Shown here one piece after another: positions 24,447-29,526 of a stretch of 33,141 nucleotides of DNA. The notes beneath the pieces are model-generated. The model saw only the letters and a list, made by a program, of their open reading frames with translations, was not told the DNA's origin and ran no database searches. The stretch spans positions 1 to 33,141 of the forward strand of contig JAUIBG010000006.1 in assembly GCA_030428165.1 (NCBI GenBank), read 5' to 3'. Source of the DNA: Actinomycetes bacterium (GTDB taxonomy: Bacteria > Actinomycetota > Actinomycetes > Actinomycetales > Demequinaceae). Within the stretch, counting starts at the first letter, position 1. Every line of letters starts with the position of its first letter. Made by a program: the position numbers and the translations under genes.

Positions 24447-28337
<3,891 letters not shown>

Positions 28338-28350
28338 CCCCTACGCATCG

Positions 28351-28380
28351 GACCCCGGTCACCGTCAGGTGGCCGGGGTC
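28351..28380 (+). terminator. Terminator of rpoB-rpoC
   Basis: GACCCCGGTCACC (28351-28363) pairs with GGTGGCCGGGGTC (28368-28380), with one wobble, around GTCA. TTGTGCGTT follows. It lies 13 bases after the rpoC stop. Confidence 0.85.
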
Positions 28381-28429
28381 TTGTGCGTTCAGGGCTCCCC
28401 GAGCCCGCGCCCGCCCCCACCTCCGCCAA

Positions 28430-28654
28430 CGGGAAGTGGTGAGTTCTTCGCACGTGCTCCGGCGTGTCGCGCCCGATGTGGTGAGTTCTGGGCGCGAGAC
28501 GTACCGCGCCCCGTCCGCTGCTGCTCCGGTGCGCCGTTGGACGTCGACCTCCGCGCCGGCAGCCGAAGGGCCGAGGTGCCGCACCGGCAGGTGAAGAACT
28601 CACCACATCGACAGCGACACGCCGGGTCTGGCGTCAACAAGTCACCACTTCCCG
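28430..28654. repeat. 225-bp palindromic element with two 60-nt inverted arms
   Basis: The left arm (28430-28489) and the reverse complement of the right arm (28595-28654) align without gaps at 48 of 60 positions. Each arm contains two copies of GTGGTGAGTTCT or a close variant, 42 bases apart: 28436-28447 and 28478-28489, then the inverse at 28595-28606 and, degenerate, at 28637-28648. C/G-rich similarity continues some 20 bases outside the arms. The 105-base centre is GC-rich with no credible gene. It fills the space between convergent rpoC and the dehydrogenase gene, as a REP/BIME-like or MITE-like element would. Confidence 0.75.
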
Positions 28655-28671
28655 GTGGGGTGGGGTGGGCG

Positions 28672-29526
28672 TCAGTCGAGGAAGATGTCCGGGTACAGCT
28701 CGAAGTCCGGAGTCCCCGGCACCGCCGCGTACTTCGAGAAGTCGCTCACCCCTGCGGCCTCGAGCACGTCCTCGACGATCAGCGACCGGCCCGCGACCGA
28801 GACGGGCCACGATGTGAGCACCTCGTACGTCGCGTCCGCGTAGATCTCCGGCGTCCGGCTCAGGGTGGCGAGCTTCTCCCCGCCGAGCACGTTGCGCACC
28901 GCAGCCGTGTCGATGGTGGTGCGCGGCCACAGCGTCGAGGCGACGACGCCCTGCTCCGCGAACTCGGCGCCGATCCCCAGGGTCGCCAGCGTCATCCCGT
29001 ACTTGGCCATCGTGTAGCCCATGTGGGCGCCGAGCCAGCGCGGGTTGAGGTTGATGGGCGGCGACATCGACACCACCCTGCGGTGCTCCGACAGCAGGAG
29101 GTGGGGCATCGCGGCGCGGGTGAGCATGAAGGTGCCCCGCGTGTTGATGTCCTGCATGAGGTCGTACCTGCCCGGCTCGAGCGCGAGCGAGCGCGACAAG
29201 TCGATCGCGCTGGCGTTGTTGATGACGATGTCGATGCCGCCGAAGTCAGCCACCGCGGTCTCGACGGCATGCTCGATGTCGTCGTCGCTGCGCACGTCGC
29301 CGACCACCGCGACCGCCTGTCCGCCGGCCTCGCGGATCGCGGCTGCCGCGGTATGGACGGTGCCCTCGAGGCGGGGGTGCGGCTCGTCGGTCTTGGCGAG
29401 CAGCACGATGTTGGCGCCGTCCCGCGCGATCCTCAGGGCGCAGGCCAGGCCGATGCCGCGGCTGCCACCCGACATCAGCACCGTAGCCCCGCGCAGAGGG
29501 GCGTCCTGGGTGTCCACCGTGCTCAT
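28672..29526 (-). CDS. Short-chain dehydrogenase/reductase, HSDL2-like
   Basis: A 284-aa NAD(P)-dependent oxidoreductase with a Rossmann fold. The dinucleotide motif is GGSRGIG (20-26), with NNAS at 103-106. The catalytic region has SMSPPINLNPRWLGAHMGYT, Tyr171 and Lys175 (YTMAKYG). The SPPLNLNP stretch and the AEF segment after the active site are characteristic of the HSDL2 (hydroxysteroid dehydrogenase-like 2) group, usually linked to fatty-acid or sterol metabolism. This protein lacks the C-terminal SCP2 domain of eukaryotic HSDL2. The ATG at 29524-29526 overlaps the stop of the upstream crotonase gene by four bases (ATGA), so the two are coupled and probably act in one acyl-CoA pathway. 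Confidence 0.88.
   Translation of the reverse strand: MSTVDTQDAPLRGATVLMSGGSRGIGLACALRIARDGANIVLLAKTDEPHPRLEGTVHTAAAAIREAGGQAVAVVGDVRSDDDIEHAVETAVADFGGIDIVINNASAIDLSRSLALEPGRYDLMQDINTRGTFMLTRAAMPHLLLSEHRRVVSMSPPINLNPRWLGAHMGYTMAKYGMTLATLGIGAEFAEQGVVASTLWPRTTIDTAAVRNVLGGEKLATLSRTPEIYADATYEVLTSWPVSVAGRSLIVEDVLEAAGVSDFSKYAAVPGTPDFELYPDIFLD

Follow-up and report, generated by a model that had tools for sequence, protein, structure and literature searches.

The closest described systems are the REP and REPIN repeats with their RAYT enzymes. As presented in part of one account (PMC3733652), these repeats are dispersed and intergenic, lie mostly downstream of genes that are convergent or unidirectional, and flank the gene for the enzyme. 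The same part of that account has REPs often occurring as close pairs in opposite orientation, some of them species-specific. It also says that REPs tagged with CGTC lack a dedicated transposase, and it describes TIRtrons, in which RAYT-like genes lie between long inverted repeats, some of which belong to repeat families. Elsewhere, MTES_1575 is classed as a Vsr-type domain (an excerpt of PMC3710099), and VsrA of Caulobacter is proposed to act in mismatch repair and to be linked to a methyltransferase (an excerpt of PMC12907096).

We found that a palindrome between two convergent genes, rpoC and a dehydrogenase gene, is made of two oriented, facing arms, both belonging to a dispersed repeat that is specific to this species (Table 1). 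In the window, that is, the whole 33,141-nt stretch of DNA that was analyzed, positions 28430-28489 and 28595-28654 match as inverted copies at 48 of 60 positions, without gaps, around a 105-nt center. The best 60-nt inverted match in 40 shuffles (of 30-nt blocks and of single bases) was 35. A repeat finder lengthened both arms to 75 nt at 76% identity, again with 105 nt between them. There are four units, two on the plus strand (starting at 28436 and 28478) and two on the minus strand (28595 and 28637), with spacings of 42 and 42. The unit GTGGTGAGTTCT is exact at 28436, 28478 and 28595, and the copy at 28637 has two mismatches. Judged within the window alone, four unit matches are unremarkable, as at least four were found in 5 of 100 shuffles. 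An earlier note made from the sequence had described the inverted arms, the symmetric 2+2 layout with its 42-base spacing, and an rpoC terminator separate from and upstream of the palindrome. The shuffles, the unit positions and a hairpin just after rpoC bore out all three.

Table 1. Features at and around the palindrome (positions in the window)
Feature	Position	Strand	Basis
rpoC	24447..28337	+	ORF, C-terminus translated; present in 44/44 genus genomes
rpoC terminator hairpin, apart from the element	28349..28382	+	sequence, fold
Left-arm outer tract, C-rich	28404..28429	+	sequence
Left arm: two direct units 42 bp apart, CGGCGTGTCG between	28430..28496	+	62.9 bits
Left-arm 12-mer cores	28436-28447 and 28478-28489	+	
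Center, unconserved between copies	28497..28587	.	comparison of copies
Right arm: two direct units 42 bp apart	28588..28654	-	62.3 bits
Right-arm cores	28637-28648 and 28595-28606	-	
Right-arm outer C-rich tract (G-rich on + strand), runs to the stop codon of the next gene	28655..28671	-	
Short-chain-dehydrogenase-like gene, convergent, start codon assumed; right arm follows its 3' end	28672..29526	-	translation

The region from 28338 to 28670, which includes the rpoC terminator, folds far better than shuffled sequence (z -10.3). By eye, the stem differs from that of an intrinsic bidirectional terminator: it is strong, but G/C tracts and no T run lie outside each arm. A search of Rfam with 28300-28720 gave no match at E values up to 1. 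Hairpins resembling the rpoC terminator are visible by eye after rpoC in several congeners, for example G012. In G063 (L101), the gap downstream of rpoC appears by eye to hold a different inverted element made of GACGATGCGG units. In G060 (G060:C1:1721846-1722266), the rpoC C-terminus is in two overlapping pieces in different open frames, which suggests a frameshift or an assembly error.

The arms recur through the genome that contains the window (G000) and appear to be confined to it. The exact 12-mer occurs 17 times in this genome, compared to 0 occurrences of the reversed pattern. We searched with an arm profile that was itself built from 42-bp-spaced arms; filters were strict, and scores were computed for the top 105 candidates of each genome. 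This search found 27 arms at 16 places in G000, all between 57 and 76 bits; the next match in the same genome had 14 bits, and the best match in the 43 congeners had 22.1 bits. The 27 arms make up 11 pairs and 5 single arms. Among other genomes, 11 of 58 have a single exact 12-mer, 4 of these 11 being among 36 congeners. None of the fetched loci from the 11 genomes contains a second unit, and a few genomes have matches to the reversed control as well; we therefore take these lone 12-mers to be chance. We also scanned 84,980 genomes, a set that may omit records near G000, with a two-unit pattern. There were 35 matching stretches; among the matches listed, many are tandem arrays and none has the inverted 2+2 layout, and we rejected the occurrence of the arm family outside its own genome on these grounds. 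In congener G012, rpoC and the dehydrogenase gene adjoin, the terminator hairpin is present, and the element is absent. Multiple copies and a site without the element downstream of rpoC in a relative, both of which the earlier note had proposed to look for, were thus found, together with restriction to one lineage.

Some loci in G000 seem to be present in two forms. Contigs C17 and C124, which carry two of the 11 pairs, look like one locus in two versions that have diverged (two blocks of DNA, 84% and 94% identical), and contigs C43 and C83 apparently contain the same locus twice, with two valS ends. The draft may therefore mix two strains or close species. Other convergent gaps of G000 hold further inverted elements (L188:5272-5419, L197:5180-5379 and L207:16098-16279). 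By eye, the units of L197 and L207 are common to repeats beside DUF559 genes on contigs C120 and C219.

Arms have the same orientation as the gene that they follow. The start of an arm is within 40 nt of the stop of a same-direction ORF (at least 80 codons) for 21 of 27 arms; of 4000 positions picked at random, 509 are so placed. Cytosine makes up on average 60% of the 20 nt that precede the arm core (27 arms) and 40% of the 20 nt that follow a stop codon in the background sample (162 stops from 210 kb of the 2.38-Mb draft). Most pairs lie between convergent genes, and the pairs on C108, C135 and C156 lie between tandem genes. One arm of each of these three pairs is not at a 3' end, and we rejected a strict rule of one arm per gene end.

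Each arm has a constant order: a C-rich tract, GGGAAGTGGTGAGTTsTTGACGC, CGGCGTGTCG, and GAAGTGGTGAGTTsTT; arms of this family carry GTGGTGAGTT. All 27 arms, found with a profile that was itself made from 42-bp arms, have their two units 42 bp apart. This spacing is also kept in both arms on C32 and in the arm on C169, despite a 1-nt slide of the middle motif. Such constancy would be required by a protein that grips the two units from the same face of the helix. In contrast to the arms, the centers are not conserved. The mean similarity score between centers of 9 of the 11 pairs was 10.8, compared to 9.4 for shuffled centers (maxima of 15 and 18), and 31% of the shuffles reached the observed mean. 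Measured between their starts, the inner units of a pair lie at a distance of 53-117 nt, or 990 nt on contig C52. Similarity between the two arms of an element (0.78; 10 pairs) does not exceed that between arms of different elements (0.79; 286 comparisons). In the C17 and C124 versions of one element the arms are 93% and 87% identical and the centers do not align, either directly or inverted, beyond about 11 nt, which led us to reject an invertible segment. We also rejected a structured RNA: RNAalifold on 25 arms predicted seven weak pairs at -0.66 kcal/mol, none of which is backed by a change on both sides, so the arms contain no supported pairs, and there was no match in Rfam. A coding repeat was rejected because conservation in the arm alignment, by eye, ignores codon positions. 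The consensus of the 25 arms does not contain GTAG, also by eye, and the edges of 9 of the 11 pairs have no direct repeat over 6 nt, with C/G-rich edges that blur the ends.

The widely spaced pair of arms on C52 encloses a gene for a protein of about 300 amino acids (inverted score 48 over 57 nt). The protein matches Pfam DUF559 at 21.6 bits, above the cut-off of 20.6, and MTES_1575 at 33.4 bits, below the cut-off of 38.2; a match to AbiEi_4 was not significant (E 0.16). PADLOC AbiEi profiles match its N-terminal half at 13.7-22.4 bits, and a DpdF model matches the nuclease half at 27.2 bits, better than the AbiEi models match the front. We aligned the proteins from 22 of 53 unique loci. Residues E195, D227, E238, D240, H245, D254, R257, G265 and R270 are invariant in all 22, and the C52 protein thus appears to keep the putative catalytic residues of Vsr/DUF559 (MTES_1575) nucleases. 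A profile of the 22 relatives matches the endonuclease-like PDB chain 3hrl (E 3e-5). Judging from these profile matches, the protein probably consists of an AbiEi-like N-terminal part and a Vsr-type nuclease part. AbiEi proteins contain a DNA-binding winged helix. The C52 gene is one of six DUF559 genes in G000 and the only one between arms of the window's family. By eye, the flanks of other DUF559 genes show inverted units of different sequence, and we therefore tested the class as a whole. A protein search with one such nuclease gave 2-10 matches per genome in all 44 genomes of the genus.

Pairing between nuclease genes and flanking repeats is well supported across the genus. We compared 350 nt before each gene to 200 nt after it and, as a control, the upstream region of one gene to the downstream region of another. 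The 58 loci given included 1 without a hit, 4 duplicates and 1 that was dropped because its upstream region was masked (the perfect 64-bp case described below), leaving 52 that were scored. An inverted flanking match with a score of at least 16 was present for 23 of the 52 nuclease genes, compared to 9 of 600 sampled mismatched pairings. Ordinary genes, compared over slightly different windows, had a flanking pair in 1 of 74 cases. The positives came about equally from loci fetched with one nuclease as query (12 of 26) and from loci chosen by family membership alone (11 of 26). These loci are not fully independent because related species share orthologues. For the remaining 29 nuclease genes the score reveals no clear pair; one of these is the gene that follows valS in G036 (L238), with a score of 9. 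For 24 genes with flanking pairs, similarity of the repeats is correlated with similarity of the proteins (Mantel test, Pearson r 0.56, equaled in 0 of 2000 permutations). The Spearman coefficient is only 0.25; that is, the correlation rests mainly on the closest protein pairs. One nuclease gene (L227, G023:C11) has a hairpin element on both sides, with a 23-bp stem that is perfect downstream and near-perfect upstream. These hairpins differ from the two-unit arms and are another geometry of the class.

The repeats beside nuclease genes of other species have their own sequences, or dialects. One nuclease gene in G036 is flanked by a perfect 64-bp pair. Its unit, searched as AARTGGNNCCATTTC and with palindromic copies counted on both strands, occurs 52 times in G036, 75 times in G008, 43 times in G029 and 9 times in G065. 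Two other genomes have 1-2 copies and 38 of the 44 have none; the reversed pattern was absent throughout. The closest homologues of this nuclease are in G065 (74% identity) and G008 (71%), and the next full-length ones are 45-48% identical. G029 is among the latter: it has its 43 copies despite a homologue that is only 45% identical. G029 also has genes that are followed by a variant of the unit (GCGAARTGGGCCCATTTCGC and similar) in tandem-like runs (e.g., L292, L296, L300). We rejected the idea that the nuclease has decayed in G065 and G008, since the reported stops (at residue 21 of 333 and residue 3 of 314) are probably before the real start. A search of plasmids for the G036 nuclease was negative at E 1e-5. 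Among the dialects of other species, AAATGGCTCCATTT is a palindromic one.

A second family in G036 has CTGGCCGAACATAC, with the second unit 42 bp on. There are 14 exact copies in G036 and none in the other 43 genomes, and 12 of the 14 are within 80 nt of the stop of a same-direction ORF. One copy lies between valS and a nuclease gene, where a second arm is absent by score. G019 and G011 share a dialect with AAGTGGTnnnTGGT, and the spacing in the G019 element is 41 bp. A survey of the region behind valS covered 30 of 44 loci, with the end of valS located in 19; a recognizable nuclease gene follows it in 10 of these 19. The sequence after the valS stop varies, by eye, between species groups. A home behind valS that is kept while the repeat changes is expected if repeat and DNA-binding protein co-evolve.

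Based on these results, we consider it probable that the window's repeat and the C52 nuclease are a cognate system that resembles REP and RAYT but has an unrelated enzyme, and that the two co-evolve. The C52 nuclease is the likely cognate enzyme of this repeat family. The AbiEi-like part would bind the two units of an arm, which, at 42 bp or four turns of the helix, would lie on the same face. The Vsr-type nuclease part would then nick or cut at the bound arm, and repair or copying after the cut would homogenize or mobilize arms. New arms would occasionally be planted just after genes, where insertion is tolerated. Repeat and enzyme would co-evolve as REP and RAYT do, giving rise to species-specific dialects. 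Binding, cutting, and spread or maintenance of the repeats by the nuclease are steps that we infer from sequence comparisons. The arms may also serve the host as bound 3'-end insulators, as the C-rich tract and the strong fold allow both roles.

It is also conceivable, but in our judgment unlikely, that the arms are only protein-bound or Rho-type 3'-end elements (terminators or insulators) under selection for the host gene, and that nuclease genes merely share such gaps. This would account for the orientation of arms with genes, their placement right after stops and behind C-rich tracts, the conserved arms around a non-aligning center in C17 and C124, and the strong fold of the whole gap, to which the rpoC terminator contributes. 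It fits poorly with the species-specific sequence of the arms and with congener G012, which does without the element. rpoC already has its own terminator, and no T run follows the stem, by eye. Against it, too, 23 of 52 nuclease genes have matching repeats on both sides, and the repeats track the nuclease sequence. The simpler notion that all arms are mere terminators was demoted after the link to the nuclease was found.

Inverted arms, dispersal, restriction to a lineage, and a congener site without the element are equally features of a MITE family, which the earlier note had offered as one possibility, and such a family could be moved by an ordinary DDE or tyrosine transposase encoded elsewhere, with the nuclease gene as a passenger. 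We regard this as quite improbable. Internal sequence shared between the terminal repeats, as in MITEs, was not seen: the centers are unrelated and differ in length, most of all at C52. Single arms occur at 5 of 16 places, and no target duplication is visible at the edges of nine pairs, although their C/G-rich sequence blurs the ends. There are several dialects, in several species, and each adjoins a nuclease gene of its own. Finally, nothing was found that speaks for chance or a local inverted duplication at one locus; we give this almost no credence and consider it ruled out by the many arms and exact 12-mers elsewhere in the genome, with no reversed matches, and by an inverted match well above the shuffle maximum.

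We therefore return to a repeat with a cognate nuclease, which can be compared to the known systems. Like the REP/RAYT systems in the part of the account cited above, the window family is dispersed, multicopy, intergenic and mainly 3' of genes, with opposed pairs and an enzyme gene between arms. The earlier suggestion of a REP/BIME-like repeat or protein-binding array thus held in kind, that is, for a multicopy, intergenic, lineage-specific repeat with an empty site in G012. It did not hold in detail: unlike classical REPs, whose unit is a 20-40 nt palindromic hairpin with a GTAG tag at one end, the window units form no hairpin by RNAalifold, have no GTAG by eye, and are direct pairs 42 bp apart behind a C-rich tract. 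The enzymes differ as well. RAYT (TnpA_REP) is an HUH tyrosine transposase, and the enzyme gene found here encodes an AbiEi-like/Vsr-type protein. The same is true of TIRtrons as partly described: they share the placement of an enzyme gene between inverted repeats, and their enzyme family is unrelated. CGTC REPs, a REP-like class with no known enzyme, may be comparable: several dialects have GACG/CGTC near the end of the unit, by eye; unlike the window units, CGTC REPs are palindromic in that description. Caulobacter VsrA belongs to the same nuclease superfamily by domain name, but the excerpt of PMC12907096 names no repeats for it. The N-terminal half found here resembles AbiEi antitoxins by its profile matches but is fused to a nuclease. 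In the portions of the open-access literature (PMC) that our search returned, there was no report tying DUF559, MTES_1575 or AbiEi-like nucleases to dispersed repeats.

A broader proposal is more tentative, and we hold it to be possible but somewhat short of probable. AbiEi-like/Vsr (DUF559) proteins might be unrecognized repeat-associated, possibly domesticated, mobilizing nucleases. Each would copy its own dialect, often a two-unit, helically phased arm, into the 3' ends of genes, and neither RAYT nor a known transposase family would be involved. REP families that have no enzyme of their own, the CGTC REPs for instance, may be served by such proteins as well.

We know of no role for these nucleases in these bacteria. 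DUF559-type proteins are common in the genus, and the link to cognate repeats gives them a testable function. It would provide a second, unrelated counterpart of the REP/RAYT pair, and is a candidate answer to the question of which enzyme serves REP families that are without a RAYT.
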